The notes beneath the pieces were generated by a model, which was given only the letters and a program-made list of their open reading frames with translations, was not told the origin of the DNA and made no database searches. Below, in pieces: positions 28,323-36,107 of a DNA stretch of 64,000 nucleotides. The stretch is from Synechococcus sp. PCC 6312 (GTDB lineage: Bacteria; Cyanobacteriota; Cyanobacteriia; Thermosynechococcales; Thermosynechococcaceae). Position 1 is the first letter of the stretch, and every line of letters begins with the position of its first letter. Location of the stretch: assembly GCF_000316685.1 (NCBI RefSeq), contig NC_019680.1, positions 3,109,407 through 3,173,406 on the forward strand. Direction: 5' to 3'. Made by a program: the position numbers and the translations under genes.

Positions 28323-29714
28323 TCACCCACGTTTAATTCGGCCTTTGAGCTTAAACCAAGCTTCTCGCAACTGCCAAAATTTACTAGTTTTCATGGCAAG
28401 AATTTCCCTTTCAGCGATATCTCGGAAAATTTCAACGTGCTTGACAGTGGCCTGGGCATTGACAAGTTCCCAATGCATTTTATCTCTTTCCAAACGTAAA
28501 TTAGAAATTTGGTCGAGTAGGTCTTGATAATTTTTAGAGTCAAAGGCCTGCTTTGCGTAAAAAAAGAGAGTTGGCATCAGAGCTTCAATATCGGGATGAT
28601 CACTCAAGTTTTCAAAGGTTGTATCGCATGGCCGGTGTAGTTCCAAGGATTGCCAAAGCCATTCGGAAAAGCCGTCAACACTAAAACAAGACGTAATGTT
28701 AGCAGCATTTTGTCGCATGATTCTCTGTATATGAGGTTGACAAATATAGTGAACCGTCTCGATAAACTTACTGTCTTCATACTCACAGACAACACCGACA
28801 TTAAAACGAGTCACAAAACGAGCCGCTGCACCGCGCTGATTACCTAAGACAATGATTGGCGTATGGGATGTTGCAATGATAAATGGAATTCGACTAGGCA
28901 AGCTAAATTGAGAAATTTCGGGTCGATCATCCTGTTGGTCAATAGTTCCCGAAGGAATAACTGCATAGGGGTATTGGCGCATATTCTGAACTAAATCTTG
29001 CTCAGTTGGCAAGAATCCAAATAGTTTAATTGCTGACTCATCTAAATTGTTGCTTTGAGATGCGTAAGAAAAGGCTTCTAAACTCGCTTGGCCGTACCAA
29101 TGAATTTGTTGTTTTGAAGTTTCTAAAGTTGAGTACAGGAGTTGAAACGCCTTCTGACTCCAAATATTACCAATCAAAATACCAACTTTATTTTGAGCTT
29201 GACTTGTATTCAGCATCTCAATTGAGCCACCAAATAGTTTCGACTCGACAAGTGGAGGCACAAATGTCAAGGGAACCTGGTATTTTGCATGATACATATC
29301 TCGCATTTCCTGAGAGATTGCTAGTCTTAGCTCGGATTTGATTAACAGATCATGCATTAATGTATCTGAAATACCTGTTGCTAAAATATTTTGATCATCC
29401 ATAACATAGGTACAAAGAGGAGCTGCGAAGACACGCTTTAGCTCCAGGGCAGTTAGTACATCATCAGAATTATAGGGAATGCACAAAATGCGCCTAACCT
29501 GAACACCCTCAAAGTAACTCAGTAAATTGTTTTGATTGCTTTTATAGCAGAAGTTTAATTTGCCGAAATCTTGCTCCCCCTTGTAGCCATTGCTAGAGCG
29601 AATGGAGATAATCTGAGAGTCATCCTGAAAAATTCTCTTTAAGAAAATTCCAGTACCATGCCTATTATTGACTTCAGAACCAGTAATAATAACGTCTGCT
29701 ATTTGTAAAGCCAT
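28323..29714 (-). CDS. Putative glycosyltransferase with coiled-coil C-terminus
   Basis: 463 aa. It looks like a GT-B-type glycosyltransferase: the N-terminal part has LCTYVMDDQNI, a linker APP-like VPPLVESKLF, and a second Rossmann half reading GILIGNIWSQKAFQLLYSTL, PYAVIPSGTIDQQDDRPEI and LSLPSRIPFIIATSHTPIIV. No exact GT family is assigned. The last ~70 residues are a coiled coil ending in KTSKFWQLREAWFKLKGRIK, a tail shared with the next gene upstream. The DNA is AT-richer than the flanks. It is the last gene of the export cluster, 69 nt after the previous stop. Confidence 0.7.
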   Translation of the reverse strand: MALQIADVIITGSEVNNRHGTGIFLKRIFQDDSQIISIRSSNGYKGEQDFGKLNFCYKSNQNNLLSYFEGVQVRRILCIPYNSDDVLTALELKRVFAAPLCTYVMDDQNILATGISDTLMHDLLIKSELRLAISQEMRDMYHAKYQVPLTFVPPLVESKLFGGSIEMLNTSQAQNKVGILIGNIWSQKAFQLLYSTLETSKQQIHWYGQASLEAFSYASQSNNLDESAIKLFGFLPTEQDLVQNMRQYPYAVIPSGTIDQQDDRPEISQFSLPSRIPFIIATSHTPIIVLGNQRGAAARFVTRFNVGVVCEYEDSKFIETVHYICQPHIQRIMRQNAANITSCFSVDGFSEWLWQSLELHRPCDTTFENLSDHPDIEALMPTLFFYAKQAFDSKNYQDLLDQISNLRLERDKMHWELVNAQATVKHVEIFRDIAEREILAMKTSKFWQLREAWFKLKGRIKRG

Positions 29715-29783
29715 AAAGTGAATTCCATGATTAAATTTACAAAAAAATATAAAGTCTATCTTCTAGCAGTTTCTCCTAATTCC

Positions 29784-32306
29784 TTAATTGATCTTAAAAA
29801 TCTCTTTAAGTTTAAACCAAGCTATCCTAGCCTTCCAAAATTTACTTGTTTCCATCTCAGCGATGAGAATTTTCAGATGCTCTAGTTCTAGATTGGTCTG
29901 ATTTAAGTCGGATTCTAGTTTTATCATTGCTGCTTGAGTTGCGCTTAGATCAGCCTGGCAAATGTTATGCGCTGTTTGTAGATGAGAGAGTGCAATCTGT
30001 GCCTGTTCCAGATTGTTTTGAGTAGATTTAAGGTTTAACTCTGTTTTTATCTCTATTTCCATTAATTTTGTATGTAGAGACTGGACTGAGAATTGATTGA
30101 AAGCCGCTTGAAAATTATTTCCTAGAGTCTGTTCAAATCTTGGGATATGCAGGGATAATGAGCTTTTCTTATTTTTACTCTCACATATATTATTTTTAGA
30201 ACTATTGTTATTTAACAATTCTTGATACACCTTTAGATATTGTTTTGCTTGTAAAGATGCTGTAAATTTATCTTCAATTGTTTTTCGAGCATTCAGTCCC
30301 ATTGTTACAATAGAATTAGTATTAAAGAAAAATGTGTTAATAAAGTCTATAATCGTTTCAGCAAATTCCCTGGTGTTGCCAAGGGTCACTAGATATCCAT
30401 TGGTTGTGTGCTCAACCATATCAGGGATACCACCGACCTCATAGGCCAACACAGGTGTACCACAGCCCATGGCCTCTAGAACTGTATTAGGCAAGTTGTC
30501 CTCTAGGGAAGAAAGAAGTAATAGATCACTTGCACTATACACTTGGCTTATAGTATTTTCATCTTCTTCATATTTTAAAAAAGTTATTTCCAAGCCGGGT
30601 ACTTGCCAATCAGATTCACCAGCTCCTAGGCAAACTAACTTTATTTCTTGTTGATTGTATTTAGTCCAAAATAAATCATCATCTAAACAATATTTTAGAG
30701 CCTGGATGAGATGAGCAAAGCCCTTACGAATTTCATCTCGATTGTGCGCAACAAAGAGAAGGGTACAGACTTCTGGACGAATACCTAGTTTTTGCTTAGC
30801 AATAGATTTTTTCTCTGGTTTAAAAATATCTATGGAAATAGAATAAGGTATTTGCTTAATAGTTTGATGCCTGAAGACCTGACTAGCAGTTGCACATTGA
30901 TATAGCCATTGACTGGGGGTAATAATCGTGAGATTTTTTGAATTCAGGAGTTCAATCTTGTCTTGAAGAGTTAAAGTTGCCAATTCAGACCATTCGGAAC
31001 TCAGTTGAGGACAATTGCTGCAGGTTTCCTCATAGCCCCGACATCCAGCACTATAGTGGCATCCACCAGTAAACGCTGACATATCATGCAACGTCCAAAT
31101 GATTGGCTTGTTGAGTTGAAGTAATTGATTAATAGATGTTAGAGATAAGAAACCATAGGAAACCCAATGCAGGTTAATCACATCAGCATCTTGAATCTCT
31201 GGCAGTTGACTCAGATCTAGGCCTGGGTAGGGAAGGGAAAACAATGTGTTTGAAATTGAAGTGCGGTGTGTATTAATCCCGTGTGTTTGAATTGCTAGTA
31301 AGCTTTGAGTATAGCAATCTAAGTCCGAGGGCTGATTAATCTGCAAGACAGTTGGATCATCAGACAGCTTTTCCTTCACAATCATTAAAGAACGATGTCC
31401 TGAACCAAGTAGGGCCTGGTGTAAACGATAACCAGCCTTGGCTGCACCACCTTGAATGTCGAAAGTACTCAGGTGAATAATCTTCGGAGAATTTTCCTGC
31501 GCGTTAAATATAATTTGCTCCCATCCATTTTGCCGTGGCTTAATAGCTTCCATAAATAAAGAGTCCGGCTTTTTTACTTCACCATTTATTTCAATGTCTA
31601 GGTGATATTCCTTGAAATTTTGAAAATATGAATCATTTGCGGATTTTTGACAGACGGACTCAAACTGAGCCTGCCTAAGTAATCGCCCTAATGAGTATTG
31701 ATCATACATCCAAAGATGCGGTTCGCCCCCTAACCGAAATTGACCTACATCCAAAGGAGAGCTAGGATCATTTAATTCAACGACAGGTTTCCCCTTTTTG
31801 ATCTGGTTAATTAATTCTTGGCCTTCCCTCCCAATTCGGCTTAAAACAAATTGTTCTCCTTCAGGGCTTAAATTAGTGAGGTAGGAAATCATGTCTCCTC
31901 CAGAATAATGACGAACCGCTTGATCCAATAGCTCTAGCATGACCCAATCATATTCAGCCGCAATAATTTCTGATTCTGCCCCATGAGCAGCAGCAACTGT
32001 ATTGAGGCCTAATTCCAAACAGTTTAAGTATTGACGAGTAATTTGTTCGAGGTCTGGAACAACAATTCGAATAACGCCACCAGGCCGGAGAACACGATAG
32101 CATTCCTTGATAAAATTGTCGGCCAAAGCCTTCGGAAAATGCTCTAAAACATGGGAATGATAAACTAAGTCAAAGCTTTGATCAGCAAAGGGAATTCCTT
32201 GTTTCAAATCATGGGCAATTACTCCCGTCCCAGTGACTGTAAAATCAACATTTACCCAGTCTGGATGAAAGTTATAGCCACATCCCAAGTTAAGACAGTT
32301 CACCAT
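29784..32306 (-). CDS. Methyltransferase-glycosyltransferase fusion
   Basis: 840 aa. Residues 1-~230 form a class I SAM methyltransferase (CLNLGCGYNFHPDWVNVD; FDLVYHSHVLEHFPKALADN; YRVLRPGGVIRIVVPDLEQI). Residues ~274-700 form a GT4-type glycosyltransferase: IIHLSTFDIQGGAAKAGYRL, WTLHDMSAFTGGCHY, and DNLPNTVLEAMGCGTPVLAY in the donor site. A cysteine cluster at C416, C422, C429 and C432 may bind metal. A coiled coil (~735-815) ends in METSKFWKARIAWFKLKE. It probably modifies and extends the exported glycan. The gene is AT-rich and starts 2 nt after the previous stop. Confidence 0.85.
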   Translation of the reverse strand: MVNCLNLGCGYNFHPDWVNVDFTVTGTGVIAHDLKQGIPFADQSFDLVYHSHVLEHFPKALADNFIKECYRVLRPGGVIRIVVPDLEQITRQYLNCLELGLNTVAAAHGAESEIIAAEYDWVMLELLDQAVRHYSGGDMISYLTNLSPEGEQFVLSRIGREGQELINQIKKGKPVVELNDPSSPLDVGQFRLGGEPHLWMYDQYSLGRLLRQAQFESVCQKSANDSYFQNFKEYHLDIEINGEVKKPDSLFMEAIKPRQNGWEQIIFNAQENSPKIIHLSTFDIQGGAAKAGYRLHQALLGSGHRSLMIVKEKLSDDPTVLQINQPSDLDCYTQSLLAIQTHGINTHRTSISNTLFSLPYPGLDLSQLPEIQDADVINLHWVSYGFLSLTSINQLLQLNKPIIWTLHDMSAFTGGCHYSAGCRGYEETCSNCPQLSSEWSELATLTLQDKIELLNSKNLTIITPSQWLYQCATASQVFRHQTIKQIPYSISIDIFKPEKKSIAKQKLGIRPEVCTLLFVAHNRDEIRKGFAHLIQALKYCLDDDLFWTKYNQQEIKLVCLGAGESDWQVPGLEITFLKYEEDENTISQVYSASDLLLLSSLEDNLPNTVLEAMGCGTPVLAYEVGGIPDMVEHTTNGYLVTLGNTREFAETIIDFINTFFFNTNSIVTMGLNARKTIEDKFTASLQAKQYLKVYQELLNNNSSKNNICESKNKKSSLSLHIPRFEQTLGNNFQAAFNQFSVQSLHTKLMEIEIKTELNLKSTQNNLEQAQIALSHLQTAHNICQADLSATQAAMIKLESDLNQTNLELEHLKILIAEMETSKFWKARIAWFKLKEIFKIN

Positions 32307-32308
32307 GA

Positions 32309-33253
32309 TTAATTTCTCATTTCAATTGATGAAGGATCATCAGCCTGGGGAGTGGCTAATTTACGATATTTGACATAAAAACTTTGTCCTTTTAATCGAT
32401 GTCTTAAACCAACCTTGAGGATTTTAGCTGCTATTGATTGAGTCCAAGAGTTAAGCCACCACTTGCCAATATGATTTGAAGCCTGATAGTAATTAGTGTA
32501 ACTTTCTAAATATCCTTCTACATGATATGCTGCTAGTGGTTCAAACTCAACTCGTTCTAGTCTGAGCGGAAATAGATGTTCTAAGGCCTGACAACTGGTT
32601 AGTGACCAGCGCGACATATGATGAGGAGGCATATCTAAAAGATTATATTGATACTGGAGAAAGCTTTCACGATTCGGTAATCCCAACAGAAGAGTGCCAT
32701 CGGGATGCAAAAGCGACAAACACTCTGTCAAGAATTTTTTGGCATTAGCAATATGTTCTAACACTTGAAAACTACAAATGCAATCAAACATTTCTCCTTG
32801 CTCTAACAACTCTGCAAGTGTAGCCGAACTGATCGGGAGTCCTTGGGCCTGGGCTGATTGAATTGCATCAGGATTAAGTTCAATGCCTTGAATATTAAAT
32901 CTTTGATCCTGAGCGGCCTGGATAAAACGACCAAAGCCACTACCCACCTCTAAGATTCGTTGCTGTCGTTGGATATCTTGGAATGCCAACTGATACTCCC
33001 ATTTGTCACTCATGTAATACCAGGTAAAACCCATTAACTGAGCATAAAGCTTTCCTGATCCTTCAATGTCAAAAGGATAGAAGAACTGTAGCTTTGTTTC
33101 TAAGCATTCATATAAATAAATATTTTGATAACTTTTAAACTCAAGAGAGATATCAATTTGAAAGGTGTCTTGCCAGGCCTGGATGAGTTCTTCGACCTGA
33201 AATGTTTGGAGTCGCCTAACTTGATCAGAACCCGTTAAAGGACTATAAATCAT
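32309..33253 (-). CDS. SAM-dependent methyltransferase
   Basis: 314 aa with a class I methyltransferase core at ~95-215: RILEVGSGFGRFIQAAQDQ (motif I), IQGIELNPDAIQSAQAQGLP, then FDCICSFQVLEHIANAKKFL and HPDGTLLLGLPNRESFL. It resembles UbiG/type-11-12 enzymes of polysaccharide loci. The N-terminal ~90 residues may be a separate recognition region. Its ATG overlaps the upstream stop by one base (TAATG), so translation is coupled. The likely substrate is a sugar or lipid-linked glycan. Confidence 0.85.
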   Translation of the reverse strand: MIYSPLTGSDQVRRLQTFQVEELIQAWQDTFQIDISLEFKSYQNIYLYECLETKLQFFYPFDIEGSGKLYAQLMGFTWYYMSDKWEYQLAFQDIQRQQRILEVGSGFGRFIQAAQDQRFNIQGIELNPDAIQSAQAQGLPISSATLAELLEQGEMFDCICSFQVLEHIANAKKFLTECLSLLHPDGTLLLGLPNRESFLQYQYNLLDMPPHHMSRWSLTSCQALEHLFPLRLERVEFEPLAAYHVEGYLESYTNYYQASNHIGKWWLNSWTQSIAAKILKVGLRHRLKGQSFYVKYRKLATPQADDPSSIEMRN

Positions 33254-33912
33254 TAGCCATGCCGTGTATGAGTTTTACCTTTAATCCAATAGGCTTGGGT
33301 TGTACCCACACGCTCTAAAATCGGTTTTTCATGATGTCTAAAGCAAAAATCATAAAACGCTTCCCGACAGCCTTCCCAGTAGCCAAAATCATCTAAAACA
33401 ACACATCCCCCCACGGGAATCCGGGGATAGAATGTTTCTAAAACTAATGTTACTGAATCATACCAATCAGCATCGCAATGAAGGAGAGAAACCTGTTCAG
33501 GAAGCGCATCTTGAAAGGTCTCCTCAAACCAACCCGGCCGAATGATATATTGGTCTTTGGAAATATTTAAGGCTTTCATGACAGCGTTGACATCATCAAT
33601 TTGGCCAACACAAGCCCCAACCCATTCAGCCGCCTCACTTCCGTCTCTTTCTGTGGTTTCTGGCATTCCTTGGAAGCTATCAAATAACCAAATTTTAGTA
33701 TTTTCACTGAGGGATCGAGCCAAGATTGCGGCACTACCCCCCTTATACACTCCACATTCAACAAAATCCCCAGAAATTGCCTGAGTTTTCAATGTTTCTG
33801 CTAAATGATAAAGAGAGCCTAATCGTTGAGCATCTGAGAGGGTGTAAGGTTTTACAAGTCGCATTAACTCCTCCCAGGACTGTTGTTTCTGGTTAGGTAG
33901 AGATACACCCAT
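33253..33912 (-). CDS. TylF/MycF-type O-methyltransferase
   Basis: 219 aa. Family marks are GDFVECGVYKGGSAAILARS (motif I), WLFDSFQGMPETTERDGSEA, LLHCDADWYDSVTLVLETFY and GGCVVLDDFGYWEGCREAF. TylF/MycF enzymes are metal- and SAM-dependent sugar O-methyltransferases; the acidic pairs (DAD, DD) supply the Mg2+ site. In this locus it probably methylates a glycan residue, perhaps as a chain-end mark. It sits between wzt and the next methyltransferase with coupled ends. Confidence 0.87.
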   Translation of the reverse strand: MGVSLPNQKQQSWEELMRLVKPYTLSDAQRLGSLYHLAETLKTQAISGDFVECGVYKGGSAAILARSLSENTKIWLFDSFQGMPETTERDGSEAAEWVGACVGQIDDVNAVMKALNISKDQYIIRPGWFEETFQDALPEQVSLLHCDADWYDSVTLVLETFYPRIPVGGCVVLDDFGYWEGCREAFYDFCFRHHEKPILERVGTTQAYWIKGKTHTRHG

Positions 33913-33932: not shown

Positions 33933-35288
33933 TTAGGGTTTGACCAATGGCTCAGGATAAGCGGCCTCCAGCACATTGACAGTAAACTTAACGTCAAAAT
34001 GGACAGGGCCATGGATAACACGCTTAGAGTAAAGATTAACATTAAAGAAATAGCCATATTCTAGATGGTCGTAGATAATCACCCGTTGCAAATCATACCG
34101 TTGATTGTCTTGATACCCAATTACCCCTAAGGTCATGTAGTAAGCCCCTGCCCGGAGAGGAAAACAGAGGTTCACTTTAGCCTGAATCACTTGGCCAGCG
34201 TTGAGAACTGGGTAGTTTTGAGGTTGTAGATCTAAAATTGAAAATACCTCATTACCTTTCAAGTCTTTAACAATTAATCCTATGTCATAAACAGCAACAT
34301 CTCGATGAGCTTTTAAGGTATATTCCGCAGTCACTAACTCATCGTGATCAATATCCTGCCGAAAGCGGCCGCGAGCATCCAGAAGCTGAAAGTCAATGAT
34401 TTGGATATCACCGTTACCAATTCGTTCACTTTCTGTAATTTGGTTAATTGGAATTGCTGAAGATTGAGTCACATCACCTTCAAACCCAGATGAACTTTGA
34501 TTATCCAACTCAACCGCTGATGTCATCGAGGTGGCGGCTAAAAACCCTTGATCTTCCCAAACCTCCTGCCGATAGGCCTGGGTAACATCTTTGGGCTTGC
34601 CCTCCATCGCAATTTGCCCATGTTTAAGCCAAAGGCAACGATCACACAGGCCGGTCATGGTACTGGTGTCATGGGAAACAAATAAGACCGTAATTCCCCG
34701 ATCCATCATGTTTCGCATCCGTTTAAAGCACTTGGCCTGGAAGTGAATATCCCCAACGGCTAAAGCTTCATCAACAATGAGAATATCGGGTTCTACGCTC
34801 GTTGCAACGGCAAAGGCCAACCGCACCATCATCCCACTCGAATAGGTTTTGACTGGCTGATCAATAAAGTCTCCAATGTCAGCAAATGCCGTAATCTCTG
34901 CAAATTTTTCCTCAATTTCAACTGGTTTTAAGCCGAGAACTTGTCCATTAAAATAAACATTTTCTCTACCAGTAAACTCAATATTAAACCCACTGCCTAA
35001 CTCCAACAGAGCCGCAATCCGTCCTTGAACCTTCAGTGTGCCGCTGCTTGGAGCTAGTGTACCGGCAATAATTTGGAGAAGGGTACTCTTACCTGAGCCA
35101 TTTCTGCCAATAATTCCCAGTGTTTCACCCCGTTGAACCGTTAGACTGATATCCCTTAGGGCCCAAAATTCCTGAGCTTTACTGGCCTGTTTCCAGAAGA
35201 TTTCCTTTAAGCGATCCCCTGGATGATCATAGCGGCGATAACATTTGGAAACCCTTTCTAAGGAAATTAGGCTATCTCTGGACATCAC
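33933..35288 (-). CDS. wzt: Polysaccharide ABC exporter ATPase, Wzt type with C-terminal glycan-binding domain
   Basis: 451 aa. The ABC domain has Walker A GRNGSGKST (61-69), signature YSSGM (149-153), Walker B ILIVDEALAVGD (169-180) and switch His206. After a linker, residues ~280-440 form a beta-sandwich like Wzt-C (IQIIDFQLLDARGRFRQDID ... YMTLGVIGYQDNQRYDLQRV). In Wzt systems that domain binds a terminal modification on the glycan before export, which fits the methyltransferase genes beside it. It starts 6 nt after the permease stop. Confidence 0.93.
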   Translation of the reverse strand: MMSRDSLISLERVSKCYRRYDHPGDRLKEIFWKQASKAQEFWALRDISLTVQRGETLGIIGRNGSGKSTLLQIIAGTLAPSSGTLKVQGRIAALLELGSGFNIEFTGRENVYFNGQVLGLKPVEIEEKFAEITAFADIGDFIDQPVKTYSSGMMVRLAFAVATSVEPDILIVDEALAVGDIHFQAKCFKRMRNMMDRGITVLFVSHDTSTMTGLCDRCLWLKHGQIAMEGKPKDVTQAYRQEVWEDQGFLAATSMTSAVELDNQSSSGFEGDVTQSSAIPINQITESERIGNGDIQIIDFQLLDARGRFRQDIDHDELVTAEYTLKAHRDVAVYDIGLIVKDLKGNEVFSILDLQPQNYPVLNAGQVIQAKVNLCFPLRAGAYYMTLGVIGYQDNQRYDLQRVIIYDHLEYGYFFNVNLYSKRVIHGPVHFDVKFTVNVLEAAYPEPLVKP

Positions 35289-35294
35289 TCACCC

Positions 35295-36107
35295 CTAAAG
35301 GACATCGGCAAATGCAGGACGTAACCGCCGATACACCCATAAACCCGTGGAAAAAACAACGACTGAAATGATTGTCGCCAGGCCAAGGTCACGCCAATGA
35401 TCAACATTTCCCCCTAGTACCATATCTCGATAGCTCTCAGCAATAGCGGCCAAAGGGTTAAGTCGAAAGACCCAGGGTCGGATTGAAGCTGGAATGACTG
35501 CGGCTGGATAAACTAGGGGGGTCAGGTAAAACCAAGCATTGAGAATAACGCTTAAGCTTTGGGGGATGTCGCGAATAAACACCGTTAATCCAGCACACCA
35601 GTAACCCAGGCCGGCAGTAAACAACAACTGTGGGAGCCAGACTAGGGGTAATAAAATTAATGTCCAGGCAACATTGTGTAATGCAAAACCAGTCAAAATA
35701 ATTAAGACAATTAACCCCAAACTACTTTCTATAAAGGCAGCCAAAATCGGGACTAGTGGCAATAGGGTTAAGGGAAATAATACTTTTTTAACTAGGTTTG
35801 GCTGGTTAATTACAGATGTACTGGCCTGGGAAACACCTGTTACAAAAGCTGTCCAGGGAATTAAACCGGCAAAAAGCCAGAGACCAAAGATAAAATTGTT
35901 TTCCGGCAAATTTGCTAAAGTCAGCTTAACCTTCAGAACTATCCCAAAAACATAGGTATAGATTAACAGTTGGGATAATTGCTTCAGCAGTGACCAAAGA
36001 TTGCCTAAGACAGAACCTTTATAGTAGCTTTCCAGTTCTCGTTTAACTAAGGCATGTAGCAGACTGAGATGGGCAGGTAGGGTTTTAGCGAAACTGGGAT
36101 AAAACAT
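35295..36107 (-). CDS. wzm: Polysaccharide ABC exporter permease, Wzm type
   Basis: 270 aa of the ABC-2 permease family with six hydrophobic segments. The N-terminal amphipathic LVKRELESYYKGSVLGNLWS and the C-terminal segment RLNPLAAIAESYRDMVLGG are family signatures. With Wzt it exports a lipid-linked polysaccharide across the inner membrane. It is the first gene of the cluster, 119 nt from the divergent era gene; the cluster promoter should lie in that gap. Confidence 0.93.
   Translation of the reverse strand: MFYPSFAKTLPAHLSLLHALVKRELESYYKGSVLGNLWSLLKQLSQLLIYTYVFGIVLKVKLTLANLPENNFIFGLWLFAGLIPWTAFVTGVSQASTSVINQPNLVKKVLFPLTLLPLVPILAAFIESSLGLIVLIILTGFALHNVAWTLILLPLVWLPQLLFTAGLGYWCAGLTVFIRDIPQSLSVILNAWFYLTPLVYPAAVIPASIRPWVFRLNPLAAIAESYRDMVLGGNVDHWRDLGLATIISVVVFSTGLWVYRRLRPAFADVL

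Follow-up and report, generated by a model that had tools for sequence, protein, structure and literature searches.

Two neighboring glycosyltransferase proteins encoded in a 64,000-nucleotide stretch of the Synechococcus sp. PCC 6312 genome (contig NC_019680.1, positions 3,109,407 to 3,173,406; hereafter the window) were found to end in nearly the same 23-residue tail, with the consensus [ST]SKFWxxRxAWFKLK, attached in each to a coiled coil. The tail is modular and conserved, the coil is locked to it in phase, a helix break is predicted between the two, and the tail genes are linked to those of Wzm/Wzt-type exporters. As judged from the sequences of its carriers, it behaves as a detachable, exchangeable tag. 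We consider it probable (about 0.6) that coil and tail together form a modular stalk and docking helix, which would bring glycan enzymes together at one membrane-proximal site of Wzm/Wzt-dependent assembly.

Both proteins are encoded on the minus strand. Protein 2 (840 residues; 29784-32306) combines a methyltransferase domain (Methyltransf_11, residues 30-79) with a GT4 domain (Glyco_trans_1_4, residues 515-656), as assigned by Pfam, followed by a coiled coil (residues 732-817; 29856-30113) and the tail (residues 818-840, METSKFWKARIAWFKLKEIFKIN; 29787-29855), which scored 40.5 bits with the tail profile. Protein 1 (463 residues; 28323-29714) consists of a body (residues 1 to about 375), a coiled coil (residues 396-440; 28395-28529), and the tail (residues 441-463, MKTSKFWQLREAWFKLKGRIKRG; 28326-28394; 48.0 bits). 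Protein 1 had no match in Pfam, and no sequence relative in the PDB up to an expectation value (E) of 1. Its model (mean predicted local distance difference test score, pLDDT, of 74; six sequences) resembles the GT-B enzymes GlgM, MshA, and BshA (E ~1e-10); the Foldseek matches to GlgM and MshA (E 8e-11, probability 1.00, template modeling score ~0.5-0.6) and the two Rossmann-like domains identify the body, on predicted structure, as a GT-B-type glycosyltransferase. A BLASTP comparison of the two proteins gave a single significant alignment, between residues 402-457 of protein 1 and 791-834 of protein 2 (E 7e-6), and no significant similarity between the bodies. The sequence-only reading, which had described two unrelated-looking glycosyltransferases ending in nearly the same sequence after a coiled coil, is thus borne out: one has a GT4 domain and the other a GT-B-like predicted structure, both tails lie where they were described, and the rest of the proteins differs.

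Occurrence of the tail and its attached enzymes

A six-frame search of the whole PCC 6312 genome with the tail of protein 2 retrieved the tail of protein 1 at E 3.1e-4. Searched with a profile, three weaker matches in the same genome (E 0.045 to 0.415 with a single query) improved to E 2e-16 to 4e-18; the profile had been built from the same tails that it re-found. Five proteins of this genome carry the tail, in six copies, and are encoded at three loci, namely, the window, a 19.5-kb locus (L006) encoding a GT2 protein and an 820-residue GT4 protein by Pfam, and a third locus (L007), where a Methyltransf_11 protein with the tail adjoins an ABC-2 permease and an ATP-binding cassette (ABC) ATPase that matches Wzt_C weakly. 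In the 820-residue GT4 protein (L006:9365-11824, minus strand), the tail occurs twice, at a spacing of about 60 residues.

In a scan of 84,980 species genomes, the pattern matched 408 times and 267 relatives were confirmed; the best 80 of these 267, from 77 loci, were all cyanobacterial by title. These 77 loci, together with the window, L006, and L007, made up a set of 80 loci, whose 8931 open reading frames (ORFs) of at least 40 residues contained 160 tail copies at 18 bits or more. On the same ORFs, the reversed profile found one copy (18.1 bits) and ten column-shuffled profiles found none, ruling out chance similarity; the similarity is real, and larger in extent than the sequence-only reading had stated. 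Within the class, a profile of 21 tails (E <=0.001) detected the tail in 165 of 388 genomes, representing 92 of 160 genera, and GT2, GT4, and GT8 enzymes are among the carriers, which substantiates the earlier impression that it recurs in other cyanobacterial glycosyltransferases. Outside the class, none of 38 genomes from a phylum-wide sample matched the five own-genome tails at E 0.001, and the typed consensus tail found a match in only one Nostoc plasmid among 72,556 plasmids. A phage match (MN988468.1, E 0.8), lying inside an annotated DNA methyltransferase, was taken as chance. In the PDB, a search with the tail profile found no sequence up to E 10. Neither Pfam nor NCBIfam gave an accepted match at the tail, with overlaps below the cut-off only on coil-plus-tail pieces (one HARE-HTH, one NuoM-type), suggesting that the tail is uncatalogued by either database. 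The strings SKFWKLR and SWRLTAPLR were absent from the literature searched, in which no description of such a shared tail was found.

The 160 copies reside in 152 proteins, of which eight contain two copies and 11 are cut off by the end of the locus. Clustering at 60% identity gave 92 clusters, and in an alignment of 89 representatives (three fragments were dropped) the tail alone formed conserved columns. Pfam matches to these 89 proteins, among the first 25 of 67 families, included GT2 (27), GT4 (24), Methyltransf_11 (23), Methyltransf_24 (8), FkbM (7), and Sulfotransfer_3 (6). Ten enzyme seed profiles assigned 118 of the 152 proteins, the proteins behind the L006, L007, and FkbM seeds being examined with Pfam afterwards. 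When 24 of the 34 unassigned proteins were scanned, 19 matched enzyme families (Methyltransf_24, FkbM, Methyltransf_9/11, GT8, sulfotransferases, WsaF, and radical S-adenosylmethionine (SAM) enzymes; for two, only with scores under the curated threshold) and five matched none. Overall, the bodies comprise GT2, GT4, GT8, Methyltransf_11/23/24/21, Sulfotransfer_1/3, Radical_SAM, and others, in domain orders that include GT2-tail, GT4-tail, methyltransferase-tail, FkbM-tail, and methyltransferase-tail-GT2-GT2, the last found in 5 of the 152 proteins, two of which contain the tail twice. A radical SAM/SPASM protein, an unexpected enzyme type, also ends in the tail (L131:506-2224, minus strand). 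At least two tail ORFs are present in 52 of the 80 loci, and up to six in L138, where two of the six are fragments. The same 55-residue tail-bearing ORF, apparently the terminal piece of a disrupted reading frame, was seen in L138 (7673-7837) and in L053 (G155:C120).

Homologues of the protein 1 body, 36-46% identical, were found in seven other genomes of 194. The tail is absent from these ORFs, which end right past the body or continue into a second body copy or an extra domain; the extra domain was FkbM in both ORFs scanned with Pfam. A tail-bearing homologue, 44% identical, is encoded in L132. Bodies of this type are doubled in tandem in L072:131-3175 and in L149/L152, and are followed by an FkbM methyltransferase domain in L150 and L144. 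On FastTree phylogenies, the minimum number of tail-label changes was 13 among 107 GT2 domains, 7 among 73 GT4 domains, and 7 among 48 methyltransferases, compared with higher means of 30.8, 16.3, and 16.2, respectively, for shuffled labels. Because the changes are fewer than with shuffled labels, yet far more than one, the tail appears to have been inherited for some time and repeatedly gained or lost. Confinement to recent paralogues with identical upstream domains, the finding that the sequence-only reading had named as telling against it, can be ruled out, as the bodies are many and unrelated, tail-less homologues of protein 1 exist, and the tail has changed repeatedly on the trees.

Anatomy of the coil and tail

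Conservation was counted on 78 non-bait tails, avoiding search-pattern bias, with residues numbered from the first Trp as position 0. Ser-3, Lys-2, and Trp0 were invariant, counted with an anchor that required Trp0 and restricted positions -2 and -1 (none of the 160 copies failed it), and position +10 was Lys or Arg in all 78. Phe-1 was found in 77 of the 78, Arg3 and Trp6 in 71 each, and Met-6 in 63; Lys-2 was never replaced by Arg, and Phe-1 was otherwise only one Cys. The near-invariant Lys, Phe, Trp, and Arg suggest a specific partner more than lipid alone, an argument softened by the 18-bit profile detection, which still favors canonical tails.

Upstream of the tail, hydrophobic peaks across all 160 copies at -37/-34, -30/-27, -23/-20, -16/-13, and -9/-6 revealed a heptad phase that is fixed to the tail. 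Of the non-redundant copies, 73 could be resolved and 22 more were tied; exactly this phase was observed in 64 of the 73, against an expectation of 1/7. Between unrelated bodies, coil residues -30 to -9 were 18% identical. A strict walk along the heptads gave an in-register coil with a median of 21 and a maximum of 49 residues; this walk stops at small breaks, and a long coil is indicated by the predicted helices of the two window proteins only, where the heptads of both are in register with the tail. AlphaFold2 modeling of the C-terminal 110 residues of protein 2 (77 sequences, mean pLDDT 96.9) predicted one unbroken helix from 732 to 819, a break at T820-S821, and a second helix from 822 to 837; the model of protein 1, of low confidence in this region, has a helix at 396-442, a break at 443-445, and a helix at 446-460. 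Past the [ST]-S element, the hydrophobic row shifts by one residue, to -1, 2, 6, 9, and 13, and on a helical wheel W0, R3, F7, and K10 would form a second conserved ridge beside it.

The similarity of core tails was 0.619 within and 0.616 between loci (201 of 500 permutations as high), and that of coils was 0.182 and 0.185 (297 of 500), which rules out a locus-specific pairing code for core tail and coil. Taken jointly, residues -8 to +18 showed a slight excess of similarity within loci (0.508 versus 0.493 between loci; 32 of 500 as high), which stems from +11 to +18 (0.194 versus 0.168; 18 of 500). The comparison left out L107, L109, L113, and L128, each either a near-duplicate or the second locus from one genome, and kept other close relatives. 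Because core tails are equally similar within and between loci, a general partner is favored over locus-specific ones.

Genomic setting and the window locus

Homologues of Wzm and/or Wzt, found with a Wzt seed that could also catch other ABC ATPases, were present in 43 of the 80 loci, and both in 35. A tail lay within 20 kb of a Wzt_C domain in 26 of 37 shared genomes and for 31 of 52 tails (about 0.5 expected, assuming 5-Mb genomes), in a comparison, rather than totals, of the 150 best-listed tails with the 150 best-listed Wzt_C places. Proximity within 20 kb to the Wzx-type flippase PF01943 was seen in 1 of 31 shared genomes and for 1 of 62 tails, likewise a comparison and not a total, made with the 150 best-listed PF01943 places of a 194-genome sample. 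In these comparisons, tail genes are often encoded beside a Wzm/Wzt-type exporter and rarely near Wzx. Both tail and Wzt_C were found in 130 genomes, the tail only in 35, Wzt_C only in 105, and neither in 118, giving an odds ratio of 4.2, which ignores kinship and genome size.

Proteins 2 and 1 are encoded by the last two of six minus-strand genes in the window, running from 36107 to 28323, and the six probably form one operon, since the intergenic gaps are at most 69 bases. The run begins with Wzm, the ABC-2 permease of a glycan exporter (35295-36107; Pfam ABC2_membrane), and Wzt, an ABC ATPase with a carbohydrate-binding domain (33933-35288; ABC_tran, Wzt_C), whose C-terminal domain matches Wzt_C (PF14524) at E 6e-23. 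These two genes (33933-36107) adjoin the enzyme genes on the same strand, the arrangement of an ABC-transporter-dependent polysaccharide locus. They are followed by genes for a TylF-type O-methyltransferase (33253-33912) and a second methyltransferase (Methyltransf_23; 32309-33253), both assigned by Pfam and neither matched by the tail profile.

Proposed function and alternative explanations

The closest architectural model is WbdD of E. coli O9a, the chain terminator of an ABC-transporter-dependent O-antigen (PMC11231755, PMC3482155, PMC5082667). WbdD is trimeric via its C-terminal helix (PMC3482155); the trimeric coil keeps the terminator off the membrane, and the C-terminal region binds the membrane and recruits the polymerase WbdA (PMC3482155, PMC5082667, PMC11231755), and contains a membrane-associated amphipathic helix (PMC11231755). 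The likeness in architecture lies in N-terminal catalytic domains, an extended coiled coil, a C-terminal region, and a Wzm/Wzt locus. Both window proteins have an extended predicted coiled coil in heptad register past the catalytic domains, and protein 2 alone has an N-terminal methyltransferase domain by Pfam. In WbdD, the C-terminal helix is membrane-associated and recruits the polymerase; in protein 2, a separate terminal helix is predicted. The WbdD systems are described in those papers with one coiled-coil terminator each, whereas the cyanobacterial tail is present on two or more ORFs in 52 of the 80 loci and on many enzyme classes. A kinase domain is present in the O9a type of WbdD and lacking in the O8 type (PMC3482155); Pfam detected no kinase family in proteins 1 and 2 up to E 0.1, and neither protein was filed as a WbdD. 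Also similar in domain order is ORF6 of K. pneumoniae O7, a methyltransferase-kinase with a coiled coil and two GT2 modules, for which cyanobacterial orthologues were reported, with some orthologues stopping past the coil (PMC11231755). The cyanobacterial methyltransferase-tail-GT2-GT2 proteins resemble it, although the excerpts of that paper name no shared tail.

We propose that the coiled coil acts as a spacer whose N-terminal end carries at least one catalytic domain. At the conserved [ST]-S break it would give way to a separate basic, aromatic helix (SKFWxxRxxWFxLK), which may dock at a shared site on, or close to, the cytoplasmic side of the membrane. Candidate partners are a conserved protein, for example the exporter or an initiating enzyme, or a lipid surface plus such a protein. 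The tail-sharing enzymes of one locus would thereby be gathered at the growing lipid-linked glycan, and the simplest, WbdD-like account is that many enzymes of these pathways in cyanobacteria rely on a single docking helix. This account is preferred because the stalk is exchangeable and fixed in phase, the helix break is predicted, the terminal helix is near-invariant, and the neighborhood is frequently that of Wzm/Wzt. Several observations weigh against it. The two methyltransferases in the window gene run lack the tail, which is thus not needed by every enzyme. Wzm and Wzt homologues are missing from the stretch covered in 37 of the 80 loci, including L006 with its two tail proteins, and 35 of the 165 tail genomes have no Wzt_C match at E 1e-5. 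Although 119 of the 160 copies lie within 20 residues of the C-terminus and 7 at 21-100, the other 34 are set back from it by more than 100 residues, so that a free C-terminus is not required. Finally, the hydrophobic moment of the tail was 0.28 on the Eisenberg scale, compared with 0.276 for shuffled sequences, and 0.342 compared with 0.275 on the Fauchere-Pliska scale, where 31% of shuffles were as high.

These moments bear most directly on a pure lipid anchor, in which an interfacial amphipathic helix would bind acidic membrane lipids with no protein partner. The mean net charge of +5.4 and the three conserved aromatic positions agree with such an anchor, as does the membrane-associated amphipathic helix of WbdD (PMC11231755). 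The sequence-only reading had, likewise, suggested an aromatic and basic amphipathic tail serving as a membrane or complex-assembly tag; the aromatic and basic character was confirmed, the hydrophobic moment barely differs from that of shuffles, and, given the linkage to Wzm/Wzt exporters, complex assembly is the best fit. The hardly elevated moment, together with near-fixed Lys-2 and Phe-1 residues that lipid does not demand (a point softened by the detection bias), makes a lipid anchor by itself improbable. Somewhat less improbable is an oligomerization cap, a foldon-like clamp that would only nucleate and lock a parallel coiled coil, with no localizing role. In its favor, coil register and tail are phase-locked, the hydrophobic row of the tail is heptad-like and one residue off that of the coil, and WbdD trimerizes through its C-terminal helix (PMC3482155). 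However, the conserved W0, R3, hydrophobic +7, and basic +10 residues fall outside this row, AlphaFold2 placed a break between coil and tail (in a single-chain run), and a cap alone leaves the linkage to Wzt_C, and not Wzx, unexplained.

The tail could also be a passenger without present function, an old coiled-coil end copied among neighboring genes by recombination or fusion. Tails do occur on neighboring genes (the 52 loci with at least two tail ORFs), and internal copies resemble gene fusions. Strict conservation across unrelated bodies and 92 genera, set against the 18% identity of the adjoining coil, and the equal similarity of core tails within and between loci, which indicates no recent copying, make this explanation very hard to sustain.

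A second, probably related tail was observed beside the first. The PLR-type tail S-[KR]-S-W-K-I-T-A-P-L-R ends two ORFs (L090:6948-8117 and L096:8093-9196) that lie outside the SKFW set and share cyanobacterial loci with SKFW-tail proteins. The L090 tail had no match in 96 genomes of the class at E 0.01, and the typed PLR-type consensus had none in the plasmids. Used as a query, one of the two PLR tails matched plasmids at 28 places, all weakly (E 0.08 to 9); of these matches, 16 were annotated as methyltransferase, glycosyltransferase, sulfotransferase, or rhamnan synthesis, 5 as hypothetical, and 7 had no listed gene; 27 of the hosts belong to genera that we take to be Pseudomonadota, and one is a Paenibacillus. 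A PLR-form ending was present in four of five non-cyanobacterial loci inspected and absent from the fifth. The Alphaproteobacterial endings, S-x-S-W-[KR]-[LI]-T-x-P-[LV]-R, follow a coil-like stretch (L158:5122-6111, L159:5128-6096, L160:4609-6075, and L162:3823-6075) in methyltransferase, FkbM, sulfotransferase, and glycosyltransferase proteins. They share with the SKFW tail the coil followed by S-3, W0, K/R+1, and L/I+2, but differ past +2 (T-x-P-L-R versus R-x-x-W-F-K-L-K), and individual matches are weak, with E values from 0.08 to 9. From these motifs, the SKFW and PLR tails likely form a broader family. A bolder and rather doubtful extension of the docking proposal is that the cassette is a universal scaffold code, by which enzymes of different superfamilies, such as glycosyltransferases, methyltransferases, and sulfotransferases, would co-assemble in one bundle around Wzm/Wzt, with cyanobacteria using the SKFW form and Alphaproteobacteria the sister PLR form.

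To our knowledge, the enzyme partnerships in cyanobacterial O-antigen and exopolysaccharide assembly are largely unknown. From sequence, the 23-residue signature would identify enzymes that belong to the same assembly line, would mark protein fragments for common-partner tests, and would offer a portable tag to bring chosen glycan enzymes to the export site. If the docking proposal is true, the stalk principle of WbdD would be widened from a single terminator to whole sets of enzymes; if the scaffold code is true as well, this code, absent from Pfam and NCBIfam, would be a widespread organizing principle of bacterial surface-sugar synthesis.

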